Part shown: piece by piece, positions 11,726 to 33,413 of the stretch | Layout of the letters: each line of letters opens with the position of its first letter | Numbering within the stretch: position 1 is the first letter of the stretch | Virus record (IMG/VR): IMGVR_UViG_3300028592_000053 | Span: 1 to 33,432 of that record | DNA length: 33,432 nt | Direction: 5' to 3' (one strand) | DNA from: a virus | Notes under the pieces: model-generated | Seen by the model: only the letters and a program-made list of their open reading frames with translations | Database searches by the model: none | Told to the model about the DNA's origin: nothing | Position numbers and translations under genes: made by a program

Positions 11726-12385
11726 TTATAAGCAGCGGAAATTCTGAATGAAGAACAATTCGAAATCGTTTGAACCGTTCATCGTTCCGTTGAAGTCCGC
11801 GGTATTGCTTTCGATTGCAGTTGCGCTGGCTGCCATCGTAGGACCGGTGCCTTCCTTTGCGCCATTCAAGGTGCTGAAGAAGACTTGCCCAGCGGCTTCC
11901 ATGCATTTGTTCAGTCCGAGTTTTTCACCTAAGCCCACACCCCAAGTCGCTGCGAATCCGCCGGACTCACAGTTTCCCGGGAAGACAATCGAAGTGACGG
12001 TTTTGAAGGCCTTCGCGCCAGTGGTGGCTGAACTCGCGTTCGCTGCGAAAGTGAAATCCTCCGAGATGGCCACATTCTTGATGTTCGTTCCACTGACGAC
12101 GATCACACAATCTTCGATATCGGTAGTGGTTCCACCCGGAGTGATGACCAAATTTCTTGGAACATCTGGCTGACCTGAGAAGCTGGTTACCGTTACTGCA
12201 TCCGCAGCTGTGCCACCTGCGTGTGCACTCAAAATGGTGGTGGTAGTGGCAGCCAAAGGATTGGTGAAATCCTGACGGTCGACGACAGCCTGTGTAGCAA
12301 GCTTCACGTCGGAATTAATTCGCTTTACCCAAGCGTGAGATGGGCTAGCAAGGAATAGGGATAATCCTAAAATGAGAAATCGCAT
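11726..12385 (-). CDS. Exported decoration-like protein with Sec signal peptide
   Basis: A 219-residue protein in the capsid module that begins with a clear Sec signal peptide (MRFLILGLSLFLASPSHA, predicted cut after A18). The body contains GQPDVPRNLVITPGGTTTD, then VIVVSGTNI and GAKAFKTVTSIVFPG, a pattern I know from beta-sandwich virion decoration or head-fibre proteins. At least four Cys follow (including NCESGG and NKCMEA), which could form disulfides outside the cytoplasm. A strong ribosome site AGGAGG precedes the ATG. It lies behind the capsid terminator hairpin. A signal peptide on a structural-type protein is unusual: it could be an exported host-surface protein built on a virion fold, or the leader may be retained. 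Confidence 0.65.
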   Translation of the reverse strand: MRFLILGLSLFLASPSHAWVKRINSDVKLATQAVVDRQDFTNPLAATTTTILSAHAGGTAADAVTVTSFSGQPDVPRNLVITPGGTTTDIEDCVIVVSGTNIKNVAISEDFTFAANASSATTGAKAFKTVTSIVFPGNCESGGFAATWGVGLGEKLGLNKCMEAAGQVFFSTLNGAKEGTGPTMAASATAIESNTADFNGTMNGSNDFELFFIQNFRCL

Positions 12386-18686: not shown

Positions 18687-19088
18687 TTATTCAGATTTCT
18701 TTTCCCTTCCGTTTTGAGGCAGCACGATCAAGGTGGGTTCGGGCATCTCGTAGTTGAGATTCTCGTTCTTGTTCTTGGTTTCGAGTCGGTCGAGGTAACC
18801 GAGGTGCTGCTTCGAGAGGAAAATCTGCATCGTGACGGAACCCTTTCCAGTCCCGAACGCGGTCTCGAACATCCGGCGACGGAGAGAGGCGTTGCCTCGG
18901 GCTGCCTTTTTAGCGTAAACCACCGCAAAATTCTCTCCGTAGTGGCGCTTGACGTGTCTCTCGATCGTGTCTTCGGAGCAGTGGAACCACTCCGCAATCT
19001 CGACTTTGGTGCAGTGGATCCCGCACAGTTTTTCGAACGTGTCCCAGTCGATTTCCGTACTGGGTCCTTTAGGGCCTCGCTTGGCCAT
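18687..19088 (-). CDS. Terminase small subunit
   Basis: A 133-residue DNA-binding packaging subunit. The opening MAKRGPKGP and a helix-turn-helix around CTKVEIAEWFHCSEDTIERH (residues 26-45) are followed by ARGNASLRRRMFETAFGTGK and VTMQIFLSKQHLGYLDR, the ordinary pattern of small terminases that recognise phage DNA ends. It directly precedes the large subunit gene (stop nine bases before its likely GTG). The ATG has GGAGAAAG upstream. Confidence 0.88.
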   Translation of the reverse strand: MAKRGPKGPSTEIDWDTFEKLCGIHCTKVEIAEWFHCSEDTIERHVKRHYGENFAVVYAKKAARGNASLRRRMFETAFGTGKGSVTMQIFLSKQHLGYLDRLETKNKNENLNYEMPEPTLIVLPQNGREKKSE

Positions 19089-19138
19089 AGGCTTTCTCCT
19101 TCCATGAGAAAAAGTCTTTTTTCTACAATTCTAGTGTA

Positions 19139-19325: not shown

Positions 19326-19865
19326 TCAATTTTTTGACTTCTCCGCACCCAACCCCTTAACGGCCTTTCCAAAAAAGCCTGGCGCATCAGCCTCGTTTGT
19401 TAAACGCTGATCCCTCTCACGCTCCATCACCCAATCCAGCCGGTCGAGTTTAAATCGCATCCGACCGTCCACCAATTCGGGTCCGAAAATCAGGCGGAGT
19501 TGCCGGGCCATAATCAGGACGTCCGCAATCTCGTCAATCACGAGCGTACTCCATCCGGCCTGATTCTGGTACCGCACGAGTGCGCTTGTCAGCTCGGCCA
19601 TCTCGTCGATGGCTTTCATAATCTGGTGGCTGGGCCCGAAGTGATCAATGACTTTTTCTAGGTAACTATCCGTGTTGTCTAATCGTCCGCTTAGCCCATC
19701 CAGAGCTGAGGATACGCGAACTTGACGCTGCGCATTCTTGCAGTCGTCACAAATCACGTACTTCACTTCTTGGACCTGCCAGTCCACGGGATCGAGATCC
19801 ACACACCGGCACGAGGCGACGAGTTTTGCGCAGAGACTACATTGGATTTTTTGGTGGTGATGCAT
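19326..19865 (-). CDS. Zinc-finger protein with MazG-like nucleotide pyrophosphohydrolase domain
   Basis: A 179-residue protein in two parts. Residues 1-45 are a metal-binding knuckle with Cys pairs C9/C12, C19/C21 and C39/C42. Residues about 70-155 look like an all-alpha NTP pyrophosphohydrolase: HQIMKAIDEMAELTSALVRY followed by LVIDEIADVLIMARQL, giving the E-x-x-E and D/E-E-x-x-D metal motifs of MazG/dUTPase-like folds. Phage MazG-type enzymes cleave nucleotides or alarmones. The AGGAGG ribosome site before the ATG is strong. The gene is the last of the replication group before the late genes. Confidence 0.7.
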   Translation of the reverse strand: MHHHQKIQCSLCAKLVASCRCVDLDPVDWQVQEVKYVICDDCKNAQRQVRVSSALDGLSGRLDNTDSYLEKVIDHFGPSHQIMKAIDEMAELTSALVRYQNQAGWSTLVIDEIADVLIMARQLRLIFGPELVDGRMRFKLDRLDWVMERERDQRLTNEADAPGFFGKAVKGLGAEKSKN

Positions 19866-21966: not shown

Positions 21967-22878
21967 ATGAAAATCACAAATGGATTTGTTGGTGGGTTGG
22001 TCGTTTTGTTGGGAGTCGGATTTCCTGTGTTAGGAGCTGCGAAGATCACGCCGAAGGGAATGAGCGCCGTCCACTTGGCTCATCAGCCTTCTCCTCAACC
22101 GTCTCCCAAGCAGGAGAGTCCCGAGGAAGCCTCCAAGCCGAAGCCCTTTTACCTCCCTTTGGACGAAATTATCCCTGTGGAGGAACAAAATAAGATCGAA
22201 CGTAAGCGCACCCAGAAGTCGATTCAGACCTCTGAAGGATTGGGTTCGGATCGAACGGTCGACTTCTCCCAGTTCAACACCGGGATCATCAATCAGTATC
22301 GCGGAGACTGCACCGCTCAGGCGATGGCCGGTGGCATGGAGAATAAACTCCGTCAAAGTGTTGACACTTCTGCCGACGTTTCGCAGGAGTCGCTCTGGGC
22401 TTGGTACCGACAACCTTCCGTCTATGCAGCCGTAAACACCGCACAGAAGACCTGGGTGAAGCGTGAATCCGCTTGGCCATTTGGTGCTCGCAGCTTCAAG
22501 CTGCCCGAGGAGCGCGGTCTGTATCGTGCGGATCAAATCGAATACCTTGGGGATTATTACACACCGGGGATTAAACAGAAAATTATTGCATCGCTCGACC
22601 AGCGGAATCCCGTCTATTGGGGTGGGTCCGTCAACCAGGACATGGCTTCCTGCTTTGTGAACATTCGGGCCAACGTTCCTCAGACCAACGGAGGTCACTC
22701 TGTTCCGTTCACCGGCTACAAAGTGAGCAAGGGTGTGCTCTGGACCAAGTTGAAGCAGAGTTGGGGAAAAAACTGCGGAGACGGTGGATACCAGTGGTTC
22801 AACATCGACTCTTGCGCGAATGGGTATTGTCTGTTTTGGTCAGTGAAGAAAGTTTCAATGAGAGGGGAAGCAAAATGA
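21967..22878 (+). CDS. Secreted papain-like (C1) cysteine protease
   Basis: A 303-residue protein with an N-terminal signal peptide (hydrophobic residues 7-24, likely cut near A24-A25), a Pro/Ser/Glu linker (40-62) and a C1-type peptidase domain from about residue 95. The oxyanion Gln and nucleophile are in INQYRGDCTAQAM (Q110, C115), the catalytic His is in NGGHSVPFTGY (H244), and the third position is QSWGKNCGDGGYQWF, where papain has NSWG; the usual Asn is Gln here (Q264). Several extra Cys fit an extracytoplasmic protein. It starts a plus-strand operon and overlaps the next gene by four bases (ATGA). A role at lysis, entry or host surface change is inference. Confidence 0.75.
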   Translation: MKITNGFVGGLVVLLGVGFPVLGAAKITPKGMSAVHLAHQPSPQPSPKQESPEEASKPKPFYLPLDEIIPVEEQNKIERKRTQKSIQTSEGLGSDRTVDFSQFNTGIINQYRGDCTAQAMAGGMENKLRQSVDTSADVSQESLWAWYRQPSVYAAVNTAQKTWVKRESAWPFGARSFKLPEERGLYRADQIEYLGDYYTPGIKQKIIASLDQRNPVYWGGSVNQDMASCFVNIRANVPQTNGGHSVPFTGYKVSKGVLWTKLKQSWGKNCGDGGYQWFNIDSCANGYCLFWSVKKVSMRGEAK

Positions 22879-27984: not shown

Positions 27985-28023
27985 CATGCCTCGACTTGGG
28001 CAAAAACGCTCGCGAAATCGTCA
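27985..28023. repeat. Intergenic repeat copy B
   Basis: CATGCCTCGACTTGGG (27985-28000), then CAAAAACGCTCGCGAAATCG and TCA, matching copy A at 21681-21720. It ends on the stop codon of the glycosyltransferase gene, as copy A does on its gene. Sharing 16 exact bases plus the position suggests a regulatory site. Confidence 0.75.
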
Positions 28024-28785
28024 GGAGCCCTTACTTTTTTTAAACAAAGACCAATGAATCTTACAGTCGACCCTTCCATCGGGCTTAATTTGCTTTTCTA
28101 CGATCCCTGGCCAGAGTTCGCACATCCGTTCTACCGCTTGGACTTCCCTTCCAGACTGAGCGTAGACGTCCTTTAACCCCCCCTCGTTTGACCCGTTTTT
28201 AGGTGCGGCGAACCCGAACCGGGACGCCCTGGCCGTGCAGAGCCCACTGGCCAGGATTTGCAGGGTGAAGTCTCGGTCCTCTTTTAAATCCACCATGGGA
28301 CGATAATTAATGTGGAACGTGCGCTTGACATTGATGAAGACGGCGACGTCGCAATAGGAGTTGAAGACGAGGTTCTTCTTCGCGCTCCATGAGAATTGTT
28401 GATATTCCAAGGCGCCCTGGCCCAGGTCTGGACAGGATTGAAAAAGCTGGGTCGCTTCTTCGAGAACGAATCCGAAAGTCTTCTTTACGTTCTTAGTTCC
28501 CACCTGTTGGCTCATGGAGGAAATATCGTCGTCCAACATCCAATACCATTCGGATGAACTGGCTCGGGCAAATTGGAGGATAGAGTTCCGCACAAACCCA
28601 ATTCCTTTATTGCTCTGGCTGAGTATGAGCCAATTGATTTCTTGATTAGGGTAGGCTCTCTGGTAACTGGACGCCTCTTGAGGCTCGACCACCACAAAGA
28701 ATGGAATGCCTTCCTTGATCAGATTTTCAATGGTTTTTGACTTTCCAGCGCGTCCCTTCGAAGGAACGTAAATCGGGGGTAGCAT
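28021..28785 (-). CDS. TAGT-type DNA base glycosyltransferase
   Basis: A 254-residue GT-A fold enzyme. It opens with YVPSKGRAGKSKTIENL, has VVVEPQEASSYQRAYPNQEI, a GIGFVRNSILQFA helix, and the metal-binding acidic triplet in YWMLDDDIS (D85-D87), matching the TET-associated glycosyltransferase family of phages. The likely job is to transfer a sugar to an oxidised pyrimidine (5-hydroxymethylcytosine) in phage DNA. The start ATG overlaps the dioxygenase stop by one base (TAATG). It completes a ParB-TET-TAGT cassette. The donor sugar is not predictable. Confidence 0.75.
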   Translation of the reverse strand: MLPPIYVPSKGRAGKSKTIENLIKEGIPFFVVVEPQEASSYQRAYPNQEINWLILSQSNKGIGFVRNSILQFARASSSEWYWMLDDDISSMSQQVGTKNVKKTFGFVLEEATQLFQSCPDLGQGALEYQQFSWSAKKNLVFNSYCDVAVFINVKRTFHINYRPMVDLKEDRDFTLQILASGLCTARASRFGFAAPKNGSNEGGLKDVYAQSGREVQAVERMCELWPGIVEKQIKPDGRVDCKIHWSLFKKSKGS

Positions 28786-29606
28786 TATAGGTCATCCCTT
28801 TCTGTTTGGAGCCGCTTCTCTTCGCGGGCTTTTTTCACGGTGCGAATTCTCTGCACTTCCTCATGGATCGGCAAGCAATTACACATCTGTTGTAGAGCGT
28901 AAAAGACGATGGAATATCGGTAAGCAAACTGAGTCTTCCGAATAATCTGGGTCACCCCATGGAGGTGCTTCTGGCCATCAAAAATGAGATAATGGCCGTC
29001 CTGCAAGTCGAGTCTTAAGTCGAACTCAGGCAAGGAAAGCATGCCTCCTCCAATGTCCTTTCTCAGCACCAGCATGCAGCTCATGCAGTCCCGGAAGTTC
29101 CCACTGTCGAGGTGGTACTTCAGCGAATTGTTCTGGTTGATGATCCCACTCGTGAAGACGGTCTTCGGAATTCTCCACTCTTCGCGGACTTCTTGGAGGA
29201 CCAGGTCCTCGTGGTGCTTGTAAACTTCGGGTGCCCAGAGGGAATAGAGCTGAGTGAACTGAACCCCAAAATCACAGATCAATTTATGCTCATTTGGGTG
29301 ATCCAGGGAGAGCGACGTGGCCGAGCAAAAATCTCCTCGCATCACCCTCCTGGGTCGAAACCCAAAGATCCGAGATTCGGTCTTCAATCCGGAAGTGCGA
29401 TCACTCTTCTGGTATTTGATCGACTTACAGGCCTGACGAATGGCCGAGAGATCTCCCTCGTACTTGCCATAAATCATGACTACTTTTCCATCGAGATGGA
29501 AGACCGTCGGTTCTGTAATGATTTCGAAAGTGTCAGTCTCCAGAGCTGACTTCTTCATCAACTCCTTCTTGCTCACTTCCCTCCACTTTAAGTTCACCTG
29601 TTTCAT
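28785..29606 (-). CDS. TET/JBP-type 2-oxoglutarate/Fe(II) dioxygenase
   Basis: A 273-residue oxygenase. Metal residues lie in LKYHLDSGNF (H165 and D167) and HLHGVTQI (H216), and the 2-oxoglutarate-binding Arg in FAYRYSIVFYAL (R230). The RKDIGGGMLSLPEFDLRL block between them is the GG-x-L-x-x-P turn of JBP/TET enzymes. TETs oxidise 5-methylcytosine to 5-hydroxymethylcytosine in DNA. The ATG has GGAGAGG upstream and overlaps the ParB-like gene by 74 bases. No cytosine-5 methyltransferase gene is found in this window, so the methyl donor enzyme must lie elsewhere or be host-encoded. Confidence 0.8.
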   Translation of the reverse strand: MKQVNLKWREVSKKELMKKSALETDTFEIITEPTVFHLDGKVVMIYGKYEGDLSAIRQACKSIKYQKSDRTSGLKTESRIFGFRPRRVMRGDFCSATSLSLDHPNEHKLICDFGVQFTQLYSLWAPEVYKHHEDLVLQEVREEWRIPKTVFTSGIINQNNSLKYHLDSGNFRDCMSCMLVLRKDIGGGMLSLPEFDLRLDLQDGHYLIFDGQKHLHGVTQIIRKTQFAYRYSIVFYALQQMCNCLPIHEEVQRIRTVKKAREEKRLQTERDDL

Positions 29607-30369
29607 ATTGCCTCTCCGTCATTTCAATCAGAGTTCTGAACAGGGCACTGAAGTCTTCCAGCTTCAAACAGTTCAACAAATAGTTCGCCCTGCGCAGGGT
29701 ATCTTCGAATTCGTATCCCTCGTAGTAGAGCACAATTTGTTTAATATTGGAGGACAAATAGGTTTTTCTGGTCTCATCCATGCGGCTCTCGTCCGCAGCT
29801 CGGGCAGGCACTGGTTGAGGCACCACGCCAGACGCCAAGCTAGCCTCGTTCGGATCTGCTCCGGGGATGGGTGCAGGGTTCTGCGAAGGCACGGTGGGGT
29901 CCGGCAAAACCGGGTCCTTGAAGAACTCGAACTTGAAGCTTTCATTGTCCATCGGAAGATGGAAGTCATCCAGCTCGTCGATGTGAATTTTCCCTTCTTC
30001 CATGAACTCATAAAGTCCTTGGCGGTCCAGCGTTCCATATTGGCTGATGTCTTGAAGAACCCTCCGCCGGGCTCCTGCAGGGTCTTTGGCTCCCACGATG
30101 ACAATCGGAAGCTTGGGGATTTCGAAATCCATTTCATCCCGCATATAGGTCAGCGTGCGCTTACGTTGGGTTCCGGCCACAATCCATTTTTTACCGGCTT
30201 TGTCGATCCAAACATGAATGGGAAAGGCGTAGCCAGTTTCCTTGATTTGCTTGGCCATCGCTTCGAAGTTTTCACGCGTGAGGCTTTTCAGGTCTTTTTG
30301 TAGAACATGGAGCTCATCCAAATCAGCGAACTCCGTCAATCCTTGACAGTCGATTTTAATCGTTTCCAT
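29533..30369 (-). CDS. ParB-like nuclease-domain protein of the modification cassette
   Basis: A 278-residue protein. Residues 15-110 resemble the ParB N-terminal domain: LHVLQKDLKSLTRENFEAMA, FPIHVWIDKAGKKWIVAGTQ and RKRTLTYM, where the last corresponds to the GxRR box, here GTQRKRT. An Asp/Pro-rich linker (160-205) and a helical end (EGYEFEDTLRRANYLLNCLK) follow. ParB-fold proteins accompany phage TET/TAGT operons, possibly guiding them to DNA. It is the first gene of the cassette, with GGAGGGGG before the ATG and a hairpin in its leader. Confidence 0.7.
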   Translation of the reverse strand: METIKIDCQGLTEFADLDELHVLQKDLKSLTRENFEAMAKQIKETGYAFPIHVWIDKAGKKWIVAGTQRKRTLTYMRDEMDFEIPKLPIVIVGAKDPAGARRRVLQDISQYGTLDRQGLYEFMEEGKIHIDELDDFHLPMDNESFKFEFFKDPVLPDPTVPSQNPAPIPGADPNEASLASGVVPQPVPARAADESRMDETRKTYLSSNIKQIVLYYEGYEFEDTLRRANYLLNCLKLEDFSALFRTLIEMTERQYETGELKVEGSEQEGVDEEVSSGD

Positions 30370-30695: not shown

Positions 30696-31022
30696 ATGAG
30701 AAAGTTATCGAGACAGATCAAAGAGAATCAATTCCAAAAGCCCACCAGACAAGAAATCGAATCCGCTCTCGCCGCGGTTGAATTTGGCAGAAAGCCAATG
30801 AATTGGAATGAAGTCGATACCGTAGAACCTAGCGTTGGGTTGACTTTGGTGGTGGATTCCCTTCCCCGCTTTGAAGAACAGGAAATTTTACCCAAGGGTT
30901 TAGAAGGCAGATTTAAAGGTGAAATGCCTCAGTACTTCTTAATCATCGGCAACGACAAGCACACCTACCTCGTCGATACCCAGGGCTATGACTACGCTCG
31001 ATACGTAGCCAGAATTAAATAA
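30696..31022 (+). CDS. Early protein of unknown function, MRKLSR family
   Basis: A 108-residue protein. It starts MRKLSRQIKENQFQKPTRQE, continues with helix ESALAAVEFGRKP and then beta segments (LEGRFKGEMPQYFLIIGNDK; DTQGYDYARYVARI). The first six residues, and 19 of the first 20 bases, are the same as those of the gene at 31215. GGAGTAGAGG precedes the ATG. No family recognised. Confidence 0.55.
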   Translation: MRKLSRQIKENQFQKPTRQEIESALAAVEFGRKPMNWNEVDTVEPSVGLTLVVDSLPRFEEQEILPKGLEGRFKGEMPQYFLIIGNDKHTYLVDTQGYDYARYVARIK

Positions 31023-31041
31023 GTTTTGGAGGGAAGTAAGT

Positions 31042-31206
31042 ATGAAAGACTTTATTTATGCAGTTGTTTATGGAGATCCAGCAACGCAACAGTACGACAT
31101 GCTTTATTTCGACACCGCTGAACATCGACAAGAGTTTATCGACAAATTGAAAAAGGATCCAGATTGCAAGAACTGGGATATTCGCACCGGAATCAAAGTA
31201 GACTAG
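31042..31206 (+). CDS. 54-residue early protein
   Basis: MKDFIYAVVYGDPATQQYDM, then an LYFDTAEHRQEFIDKLKKDP helix and NWDIRTGIKVD. The plan is strand-helix-strand, as in very small regulatory proteins. GGAGGGAAGT precedes the ATG, as for the 41-residue gene. It ends eight bases before the next ATG. Function unknown. Confidence 0.55.
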   Translation: MKDFIYAVVYGDPATQQYDMLYFDTAEHRQEFIDKLKKDPDCKNWDIRTGIKVD

Positions 31207-31214
31207 GAGGCCTT

Positions 31215-31430
31215 ATGAGAAAGTTATCAAGACATTTAAGCAAAGGTTCTGAATTAAGAAGAGGCGAAATCCAAACACTCATCCAGGTTGCTCAAAAAGA
31301 GATCGATCGTTTGAATAGAGAATTAAAAGGAAACTATCGGATCTCAGATCCTGCTGAACTTCAACGTGACGACTTGATGGCGATTGTTCACAAGCTAGCT
31401 GGCACCTTGACTAAGCGAGGGGAGAAATAA
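31215..31430 (+). CDS. Small helical early protein, MRKLSR family
   Basis: A 71-residue protein from the ATG at 31215, with TAGGAGG upstream. It begins MRKLSRHLSKGSELRRGEIQ and continues with a helix (TLIQVAQKEIDRLNRELKGN) and a second helix (DDLMAIVHKLAGTLTKRG). It shares its N-terminal residues with the protein at 30696. Likely an all-helical dimer; function unknown. Confidence 0.55.
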   Translation: MRKLSRHLSKGSELRRGEIQTLIQVAQKEIDRLNRELKGNYRISDPAELQRDDLMAIVHKLAGTLTKRGEK

Positions 31431-31436
31431 GCTTTT

Positions 31437-31847
31437 ATGAAGAAGTTACTGATTTTAATCTGTGGATTGAGTTTAATTGGTTGCGGAAGAGCGCCTCACA
31501 CCAAAGCGTTGCTCCCTTATATTGAGAACTTTGAACAGACATTTAAGGCCAGTGCTTCTTCCGTACAAGTTAAGTTGAGCCAAGCAGTGCCTGACTTTGC
31601 AGACGCAGTTTGCAACAAAGGAACCGTGTTGATTAGCTTGGACTCTTGGTTAGAGTTCAGTGAGGTTCGAAGACAGGCGCTTGTGATCCATGAGTTAGGC
31701 CACTGTGCTTCGAACAGAAAAGAGCACGTGGAAGAAGTTTTTGCTGACGGATGCTTTAAGTCTTTCATGAGCGCCAATATTGATTCAGATGATTGTCTTA
31801 GCACTCACTGGGACGAGTTGGTTCAAGAAATGAAGGAACATTTATGA
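31437..31847 (+). CDS. Lipoprotein zinc metalloprotease-like protein
   Basis: A 136-residue protein with a lipoprotein signal peptide (MKKLLILICGLSLIGC; LIGC lipobox, lipidated C16) and a gluzincin-type HExxH motif in ALVIHELGHCASNRKEH (H85, E86, H89). A Glu-rich segment after it (EHVEEVFADG) could give the third metal ligand. It would sit at the periplasmic membrane face. It may act on the host envelope, for instance to exclude other phages, but its role is unknown. The next gene overlaps its stop by four bases. Confidence 0.65.
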   Translation: MKKLLILICGLSLIGCGRAPHTKALLPYIENFEQTFKASASSVQVKLSQAVPDFADAVCNKGTVLISLDSWLEFSEVRRQALVIHELGHCASNRKEHVEEVFADGCFKSFMSANIDSDDCLSTHWDELVQEMKEHL

Positions 31848-32047
31848 CTCGCCTAAGACACCTCCCTAAAGATGAGGCTCCAAAAATGGTCGTAGAGTTT
31901 GCCGCTCAACCATTAAACGATAAGAATAATAGCTCCTGCCCTGCAAAGGTTCTCAAGAGCGGAAAAGTGAAAGTATTTACGTTCGTGGGCTCAATTACTT
32001 ACGAATCCATGGATGAGTTTAAAAAAGAGTGGAAGGTGAGAAAATGA
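31844..32047 (+). CDS. Small early protein, MTRL family
   Basis: A 67-residue protein, MTRLRHLPKDEAPKMVVEFA at the start, then a KSGKVKVFTFVGSITYESMD beta stretch and a charged end. The ATG overlaps the metalloprotease stop (ATGA). The first 12 bases are identical to those of the next gene. Function unknown. Confidence 0.5.
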   Translation: MTRLRHLPKDEAPKMVVEFAAQPLNDKNNSSCPAKVLKSGKVKVFTFVGSITYESMDEFKKEWKVRK

Positions 32048-32313
32048 CTCGCCTAGAATCTCTTAAAGATCGAGTTCAACAGTATCCGTATAAAAAGTCT
32101 GCACTCAAACTGACCGAGGCAGAATTTGATGAGATGGTTGCTTTTATTGAAGAGAACGATGAGTTGGGTCACTTGGAATTCGAATATGCGGTGAACCGCA
32201 TGTTCCTCAGTAAGAAGGAAAAACCCAAGCACGCTTTCATTATGATGGAGCTCCTCGTAGTGTGCAATTTTGCCGTACACGGCAGAAGGAGAACTTATGA
32301 AGACCCAAAATGA
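32044..32313 (+). CDS. Small helical early protein, MTRL family
   Basis: An 89-residue protein from the ATG at 32044 (four-base overlap with the previous stop; GGTGAG upstream). MTRLESLKDRVQQYPYKKSA opens it, followed by helices (LTEAEFDEMVAFIEENDEL; FEYAVNRMFLSKKEKPKHAF) and a hydrophobic end (LLVVCNFAVHG). A GTG at 32029 would add five residues. No family recognised. Confidence 0.5.
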   Translation: MTRLESLKDRVQQYPYKKSALKLTEAEFDEMVAFIEENDELGHLEFEYAVNRMFLSKKEKPKHAFIMMELLVVCNFAVHGRRRTYEDPK

Positions 32314-32506
32314 AGCCTTAAGAAAGCTGTTAGATGACGCCCGCGAAGCCCACAAAATGTCTCAGGACTTGAGAGAAAGCAACCCAGCTGAATCTGCTGT
32401 TTGGGCGGATAAAGCTTACCGAAGCTTGATGCAATTCGAAGAGCTCTGGGCTTTAGAAGTCAACAAGAAGATCGACGATGTGTTAGCACAAATGATTATT
32501 ATCTAA
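32297..32506 (+). CDS. Small helical early protein
   Basis: A 69-residue protein with GGAGAACTT before the ATG. It is nearly all helix (MKTQNEALRKLLDDAREAHK; then SAVWADKAYRSLMQFEELWA). Its start overlaps the previous gene by 17 bases. The function is unknown. Confidence 0.5.
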   Translation: MKTQNEALRKLLDDAREAHKMSQDLRESNPAESAVWADKAYRSLMQFEELWALEVNKKIDDVLAQMIII

Positions 32507-32525
32507 GAAAGAAAGGACAAATCGT

Positions 32526-32729
32526 ATGGCAAAAACAATTCAAGAATATCTTCCGGAGTCCAAGACCACAGTGAACGTTCAAGCAAGGATTCCAGCCGAC
32601 CTAAAAGCCAAGGTGCAAGTCATCATGGACAAGAAAAAGATCGGCTGGAATGAGGTGGTCGAAGCTTGCTTCCGCAAATTCTTAGACGACATGGCCCAAG
32701 AAGATAAACGCAAGGAACTGATTAAATAA
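32526..32729 (+). CDS. Ribbon-helix-helix-like DNA-binding protein
   Basis: A 67-residue protein. A beta strand (TVNVQARIPADLKAKVQVIM) followed by a helix-turn-helix pair (KKIGWNEVVEACFRKFLDDM) matches the Arc/MetJ ribbon-helix-helix plan, which works as a dimer on short palindromes. It is a candidate regulator of the ATGCA operators upstream of the operon, though no direct link is seen. AAGGAC lies before the ATG. Confidence 0.6.
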   Translation: MAKTIQEYLPESKTTVNVQARIPADLKAKVQVIMDKKKIGWNEVVEACFRKFLDDMAQEDKRKELIK

Positions 32730-32738
32730 GGAGGATTT

Positions 32739-32924
32739 ATGAAAATGGTAGTGGGCTTACTGCTAGCCTTAAGTGCAGTGATGGTTTCCGGTTGTGGAAA
32801 AGTAGCCAAAGCGCAAGGTGGGTATCGTGTAGAAAGCGTGATCCCAGGAACCGCTCCAGAGTACATCTGCTTCATCATCGAGAGAGATGGGCAGACCTTG
32901 GGTGCTAATTGCGTGAAGAGGTAG
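32739..32924 (+). CDS. Small lipoprotein
   Basis: A 61-residue precursor with signal peptide and lipobox (MKMVVGLLLALSAVMVSGCG; VSGC, C19). The mature part of about 42 residues has two further Cys (YICFIIERDG and LGANCVKR), probably a disulfide. AAGGAGGA precedes the ATG. Small phage lipoproteins can act in superinfection exclusion or, as Rz1-like spanins, in lysis; the early position favours the former. No family recognised. Confidence 0.6.
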   Translation: MKMVVGLLLALSAVMVSGCGKVAKAQGGYRVESVIPGTAPEYICFIIERDGQTLGANCVKR

Positions 32925-32927
32925 TTT

Positions 32928-33200
32928 ATGAACGACTGGAGAAGTAAAAGTAGAAGAGGCTCCAGCTTAGTCGGTGAAGAGATTCGTGATGATGTCATCA
33001 TCTTCGACGAAAAGACTAAAACAAGTGAAACAATTAAAAAGACAATTTTTTTTCTCGACATGGTTCACGCAGACTTATGGTCTAAATTACAGCAAATGCA
33101 TCAAAGTAAAAATAAAAGCCTGATCGTCAAGGAAGTGGAACTGTCCTGCTTAATAATACTGATTGAAGAAGCTATGAAAGAGATTAAGAAAGGAAAATGA
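32928..33200 (+). CDS. Early protein of unknown function
   Basis: A 90-residue protein: basic start (MNDWRSKSRRGSSLVGEEIR), strand DDVIIFDEKTKTSETIKKTI, then two helices (LDMVHADLWSKLQQMHQ; EVELSCLIILIEEAMKEIKK). No ribosome site of note is visible before its ATG; it follows the lipoprotein gene by three bases. Function unknown. Confidence 0.5.
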   Translation: MNDWRSKSRRGSSLVGEEIRDDVIIFDEKTKTSETIKKTIFFLDMVHADLWSKLQQMHQSKNKSLIVKEVELSCLIILIEEAMKEIKKGK

Positions 33201-33413
33201 TTGGTAACGATGCAATCACATAAATTAGAGAGAGAAAAAATGCTGATTTTTCTGAGAGAACTGGGAGTTCATATTAGAAAGGTGAGAAGATCGCAAGGAT
33301 ACAGCCAAGATCGACTGTATCTTGAGGCTGGCTTCTCTAGAGGAATTAATCAATGGCCAGCTGAAAACGCTCAAAGAATTCTCAAGGAAATATTGGACAA
33401 TGAATCCAAATAG
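33201..33413 (+). CDS. XRE-like helix-turn-helix protein with a shortened domain
   Basis: A 70-residue protein. A TTG start (33201) has AAAGGA six bases upstream and follows the previous stop directly; an ATG at 33210 is an alternative. FLRELGVHIRKVRRSQGYSQ and DRLYLEAGFSRG correspond to helices 1-3 of the XRE fold (the SQ...L...AG pattern). After this the usual I-x-x-E-x-G turn is missing: INQWPAENAQRILKEIL follows at once, as if 8-10 residues had been deleted. It could be a small regulator of early or late promoters. Confidence in the fold is moderate. Confidence 0.55.
   Translation: MVTMQSHKLEREKMLIFLRELGVHIRKVRRSQGYSQDRLYLEAGFSRGINQWPAENAQRILKEILDNESK

Follow-up and report, generated by a model that had tools for sequence, protein, structure and literature searches.

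What does a small phage lipoprotein with the HExxH motif of a metalloprotease do in an infected cell? The question is raised by an open reading frame in a virus record from IMG/VR (IMGVR_UViG_3300028592_000053), of which a stretch of 33,432 nucleotides, referred to here as the window, was analyzed. An initial annotation described the product as an early-expressed lipoprotein with a metalloprotease motif and suggested a novel role in superinfection exclusion or envelope takeover. A lipobox, a conserved zinc site, membership in a protein family, and a confident predicted fold were computed for the product. We consider it quite probable that it is a minimal, lipid-anchored, metzincin-like zinc endopeptidase that would act on the host envelope, encoded by an accessory gene of a family found in phages and some bacteria.

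The open reading frame has an ATG start with GGGGAG upstream and an ATGA overlap with the next gene. Its product begins with MKKLLILICGLSLIGC, followed by GRAP, and has the n-region Lys, hydrophobic stretch, and lipobox with Cys of a Sec/SPII substrate. The lipobox reads L13-I14-G15-C16, with the C16 codon at 31482–31484, and HELGH occupies residues 85–89 (31689–31703), so that both motifs are as clear as the initial annotation had stated. Features beyond that annotation are a third His (H97), a Met-turn methionine (M111), and a pair of cysteines (C59 and C90). The features of the gene are as follows:

31437–31847, + strand: gene for a predicted lipid-anchored metzincin-like zinc protease, 136 aa, full-length profile match of 91.8 bits
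31437–31484, + strand: lipoprotein signal peptide with lipobox LIG-C; Cys16 is the predicted lipidation site, with Gly at +2
31611–31613, + strand: Cys59, in an invariant GxC; probably disulfide-bonded to Cys90
31689–31706, + strand: HELGHC, residues 85–90, with putative zinc ligands H85 and H89, catalytic E86, and C90
31725–31727, + strand: His97, putative third zinc ligand in an invariant column, shifted one residue downstream relative to most members
31767–31769, + strand: Met111, the Met-turn methionine, in SFMSA where most members have SIMYP

The chance of an HExxH motif is 0.0045 in random 116-aa proteins of the operon's composition, and that of a lipobox-like match at aa 11–30 is 0.0035 in composition-matched random proteins. 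Both would therefore occur together by chance in about 1.6e-5 per ORF.

No close relative of the window protein was found by tblastn against named phages and plasmids or by back-translated scans of viral and genome contigs, and no close relative of the whole 33,432-base stretch was found in the collections searched. The lead to a family was a weak match (E 8) on plasmid pBdHM1 of Bdellovibrio sp. HM001, to a second lipoprotein with the pattern W-x13-HELGHC. This pattern was run as DNA on IMG/VR viral contigs and returned at least 119 stretches, of which 118 hits were translated, yielding at least about 95 related genes. Among the matches listed, most of the translated hits belong to one family of exported proteins of about 150 residues. 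Its hallmarks are a signal peptide or lipobox, DPxFxxYxxxFE, a VGxC strand, IxIDxxYW, HELGHCxLxRxH, PxSIMYP, and YxxELF. About 20 pattern hits were discarded as unrelated, namely ImmA/IrrE-like HELGHCETGSF proteins and large M10-like proteins. The HELGHCETGSF set consists of viral or prophage proteins without a signal peptide (L058, L064, L077, L099, L105, and others) that have the same DNA pattern but fall outside the family.

A profile was built from 93 members, not including the window, and matched the window protein over residues 1–134 (91.8 bits, E 2.5e-30). Since members had been picked by motif, shuffling and masking controls were run. When the flanks were shuffled and the motif core was kept, the best of 200 sequences scored 43.0 bits, and with the motif masked the window protein still scored 38.6 bits against the family profile. 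By these sequence comparisons, the window protein is a member of the W-x13-HELGHC lipoprotein family, a large and nameless family present in many uncultured phages and some bacteria. The nearest rows by path in the tree, L096 (record G059) and L063 (record G039), are about 33% identical to the window protein, and support for the grouping is modest. Record G039 also has in common with the window an ORF beside the terminase (18690–19130, 48.5%), and G059 a large tail-end protein (44.6% over 130 residues). Ten records have portal or capsid genes related to those of the window; they are mostly fragments or the structural half only, so the lack of a match to the single protein in all ten, and of a profile match in nine, is uninformative.

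Conservation of the putative active site extends beyond the residues used for selection. H97, M111, and C59, none of which was a selection criterion, are invariant in a 67-row alignment (A2); C90 is invariant too, but is part of the selection motif. The Met-turn is mostly SIMYP across A2. Among the matches listed, the third His occurs at one spacing, HExxHx6H, in 87 of 96 members, and the HExxHx7H of the window is atypical for the family. Loss of the motif was tested for with a second pattern that ignores HExxH, and all nine family members found with it keep HELGHC. The profile alone picked up three more members, in which the motif reads HEFGHC or HELAHC, and HELGH is kept in the nearest relatives (twice in G059 and once in G039), so that no loss of HExxH was seen among relatives. 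A scan for Glu replacements encoded by NNY codons, which leaves out Gln and Lys, gave five stretches, none of them in the family. Among the substitutions screened, then, no Glu replacement was found, and the putative zinc ligands and Glu appear to be kept across deeply divergent members. This conservation argues for working enzymes. It also bears on the reading that the motif has no function and that the lipoprotein acts solely by binding. Some phage lipoproteins do work by binding, and the third-His spacing in the window is atypical, but the retention of ligands and catalytic Glu over such divergence makes this reading very unlikely.

Structure prediction with AlphaFold2 on the family alignment gave confident models for the window protein (pLDDT 92.2, pTM 0.82) and for a typical member, L057 (pLDDT 92.3, pTM 0.82). 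The best PDB matches in Foldseek were the mini-zincins selecase, abylysin, and jannalysin, all weak (E 0.002 at best). With VIA-align, the top match for the window was MMP-9 (Z 8.3 over 103 residues), and L057 matched MMP-11 (Z 9.6 over 106 residues); these scores are just above the tool's noise level of 7–8 and are supportive, not decisive, for a metzincin fold. The window model has three strands of at least three residues, versus five in MMPs. Compared with solved metzincins, the family profile matched reprolysins (E 0.0027), fragilysin, and MMP-1 over a span that includes the zinc site and the Met-turn. The predicted fold bears some resemblance to those of metzincins (MMPs, snapalysin) and mini-zincins.

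The family shares HExxH, a third His, and a Met-turn with metzincins such as the matrixins (MMPs), snapalysin, reprolysins, and fragilysin, and may have a similar fold. It differs in having no prodomain, a catalytic domain of only about 115 residues, a predicted lipid anchor, and the conserved C59/C90 pair. It also departs from the metzincin spacing HExxHxxGxxH by one extra residue (two in the window), and for this reason we describe the protein as metzincin-like but do not place it among the metzincins. The minimal zincin scaffold is shared with the mini-zincins (selecase, abylysin, jannalysin, and Acel_2062), but these are soluble, whereas members of the family are predicted to be exported and conserve the third His and Met-turn; Acel_2062 is a mini-zincin without a Met-turn (PMC3890501). 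In the mini-gluzincins selecase and abylysin the third ligand is Glu, whereas all rows of A2 have His at position 97.

Judged by sequence matches, the protein fits no described family in Pfam, NCBIfam, or PHROG. The nearest is PF18894 (PhageMetallopep), itself a putative phage metallopeptidase, which is mentioned in a paper on a Burkholderia phage gene (PMC12860723). It resembles the family in the HExxH region and matches 65 of 68 members weakly (best E 3.6e-6), but the match covers the HExxH half only, without the lipoprotein signal, and for the window (21.7 bits, E 2.3e-4) it lies under the curated cut-off of 23.7. NCBIfam has no model for the family, and PHROGs gave just scattered weak matches to members. 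TIGR04549 (LP_HExxH_w_tonB, model length 261) likewise describes a Bacteroidota HExxH lipoprotein with a TonB-linked neighborhood, but at its cut-off of 75 bits it had no match in the window, in pBdHM1, or in two Bacteroidota genomes that bear the family, and it did match a control genome. The novelty that had been proposed therefore holds for the family, which is undescribed in the libraries searched, and not for its general fold.

Export signals occur in nearly all members. A lipobox is present in 72 of the 91 members whose 5' end is complete, and most of the remaining 19 have a signal peptide or an N-terminal hydrophobic helix (among the matches listed). In A2, the lipobox column holds Cys in 85% of rows, with Gly at +2 in 63%. 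A cytoplasmic location, which would have spoken against the initial annotation, is not indicated by the sequence. Among the matches listed, none of the 72 lipobox members has Asp at +2 and 43 have Gly, which under the sorting rule of the E. coli Lol system indicates the outer membrane, with the reservation that the E. coli rule may not be that of the host. The window protein is most likely anchored in an envelope membrane, probably the outer membrane facing the periplasm.

A C59–C90 disulfide is likely from the pattern of cysteine conservation. Both cysteines are absent together in two relatives outside the lipoprotein class: a protein of MW202601 and L190, a Bacteroidota protein that has a transmembrane segment. 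Joint absence from non-lipoproteins fits a disulfide formed in an oxidizing compartment. One exception is L133, in which C90 is kept and C59 is apparently missing. The MW202601 protein is a distant relative (39 bits) encoded at 19575–20567 of L175 (MW202601.1, a Manatee Spring phage) and annotated as 'neutrophil collagenase'; it has no signal peptide and neither Cys, and its gene comes last in a long series of same-strand genes.

From the features described above we infer lipidation, membrane anchoring, zinc binding, and proteolysis. The infected cell would export the protein through Sec, and Cys16 would be lipidated, anchoring the protein in a membrane of the envelope (most likely the outer one), so that it faces the periplasm. 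A single zinc would be held by H85, H89, and H97 above the Met-turn at M111, with E86 as the general base and the C59–C90 disulfide stabilizing the protein. Host envelope proteins would then be cleaved. Our leading guess is that an outer-membrane or periplasmic host protein is modified for the benefit of the phage, with phage exclusion as one possible outcome.

The gene lies in a cluster of small genes at the end of the window, where further features were identified:

30696–33413, + strand: closely spaced small genes, oriented away from the − strand genes ending at 30369
32526–32729, + strand: possible ribbon-helix-helix (Arc-like) regulator (phrog_582, E 0.001)
32739–32924, + strand: second small lipoprotein, 61 aa, with lipobox VSG-C and two further Cys

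Gene order and strand of the cluster are compatible with early expression, which is putative; promoter-like and terminator-like sites were no more frequent in the window than in shuffles. The ribbon-helix-helix protein of the initial annotation finds some backing in the match to an Arc-like repressor, which is single and weak. The second lipoprotein is present as described. It matched no Pfam or PHROG family, has no homolog among the family loci compared, and could be a partner or substrate of the protease, or independent of it. It resembles the known exclusion lipoproteins Llp and Cor only in its size and does not match them in sequence.

A protease encoded near a lipoprotein has a phage-linked precedent. 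In Listeria, the phage-derived secreted metzincin of the Mtz-Tim pair cleaves a lipoprotein and sensitizes cells to phage lysins (PMC8235301). The window protein could similarly aid lysis or weaken the envelope by cleaving lipoproteins or envelope-tethering proteins, easing virion release, and the second lipoprotein in the cluster would fit such a role. The two systems, which we compared by description only, share an exported metzincin or metzincin-like protein linked to a phage, with a lipoprotein encoded nearby (PMC8235301). In Mtz-Tim, however, the protease has HExxHxxGxxH and is unanchored and secreted, and its different partner, the lipoprotein, is the substrate, whereas in the window the protease is itself the predicted lipoprotein. 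Endolysins, holins, and spanins are also not recurrent among 103 neighbors of family genes, with one SLT match to Pfam among the commonest families listed. We regard a lysis aid as rather unlikely.

No shared neighbor was found across the family when links to lysis cassettes, papain genes, and replication genes were examined. Some members adjoin primase, ribonucleotide reductase, RNA ligase, or recombination genes, and others tail genes. Several contigs carry two copies (L096; L048 and L150; L056 and L122; L039). This shifting neighborhood looks like that of an accessory gene. A second lipoprotein was observed near eight family loci (L056, L061, L150, and others), several with collagen-like GXX repeats, and a signal-peptide protein (MKIKKYIVIGLLLTTTAWA) recurs close to members L041, L063, and L118.

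The window itself carries a Terminase_6 large subunit and a Mu-like portal, and one further exported protein is relevant here:

21967–22878, + strand: papain-like exported protein with a signal peptide, 20.1 bits against a Pfam cut-off of 20.7

It has KQSWG where papain has KNSWG. That the phage carries two exported proteases, as had been claimed, is plausible given the signal peptide on this protein, which nevertheless scores below the Pfam value. Side observations in the window include a gene in the capsid region (11726–12385, − strand) whose product opens with a Sec-type signal peptide (MRFLILGLSLFLASPSHA), an odd feature in a virion gene, and a TET-associated glycosyltransferase (TAGT) beside a Tet/JBP oxygenase (28021–29606, − strand), likely a DNA hypermodification pair.

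Exported proteases might instead feed or arm the infected cell, for example against prey, without a part in infection itself. A host fitness gene of this kind would agree with the homolog on the Bdellovibrio plasmid and with the papain-like exported proteases near family genes in L063 and L066 and in the window. Papain genes occur in just 3 of 50 records, however, and no integrase or other evidence of lysogeny was seen in the window, and we find this reading unlikely. The plasmid homolog (L032 7725–8339; AP029175.1 82327–82941) lies on a 161-kb replicon with RNR, RecA, SSB, dUTPase, and ClpX; pBdHM1 could be a phage-plasmid, and Terminase_6N was not found on it. Its use as a host indicator for the window was dropped, as it has almost nothing else in common with the window and no Terminase_6N.

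Superinfection exclusion would require the protease to degrade or clip an envelope receptor or injection co-factor, blocking other phages. Periplasm-facing lipoproteins are proven exclusion factors, including T5 Llp, which blocks its receptor by binding (PMC9586334), and the phage lipoprotein Ltp (PMC3952083). Like the window protein, Llp, Cor, and Ltp are phage-encoded lipoproteins made by the host cell, but they bind and are not described as proteases, whereas the window protein is a predicted protease. Similarity to Cor (phrog_1119) was limited to a match of signal-peptide length (E 0.32), with none beyond it. Chromosomal relatives are found in operons that also encode TonB-dependent receptors, a class that includes known phage receptors, but no conserved link to receptor-binding genes is seen in phages. 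We regard exclusion as such as somewhat unlikely.

The chromosomal relatives offer a more specific context. The family profile matched 8 of 395 Bacteroidota genomes (about 2%). In three (G125, G219, and G223), the family gene is flanked by genes for an ECF sigma factor and FecR, a TonB-dependent receptor is encoded downstream, and a divergently oriented lipoprotein gene lies upstream; domains of this operon were confirmed for representative neighbors. The operons span L188 3974–8515, L198 2710–7256, and L202 2316–6995, and the divergent lipoprotein beside them is uncharacterized (L188 8777–9436 and L202 7144–7842). Surface signaling by ECF sigma factors and FecR works by regulated proteolysis. 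The phage protein might accordingly be a signaling protease that cuts a periplasmic FecR-like anti-sigma or sensor domain, resetting an envelope-stress or nutrient-uptake program during infection. G125 and G219 seem closely related, however, giving two and not three independent cases, and four other full-length chromosomal copies inspected (of ten matches in total) have different contexts. No phage member has this context either, and the role in the bacterial operons is itself putative, so a signaling role in infection seems improbable.

The recurring ECF-sigma/FecR/TonB neighborhood nevertheless points to a concrete first candidate substrate for the envelope protease that we favor. Phage versions of a bacterial surface-signaling protease might clip TonB-dependent receptors or their FecR partners, closing the receptors to rival phages. 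We think this quite unlikely; if true, receptor clipping would be catalytic superinfection exclusion, as opposed to the binding lipoproteins known so far. The family has an apparently intact zinc-protease site and yet is nameless in the main libraries, despite at least about 95 members on viral contigs. Phage lipoproteins that alter the envelope have been described as binders; one that works by catalysis would give phages a new means of remodeling the host surface.
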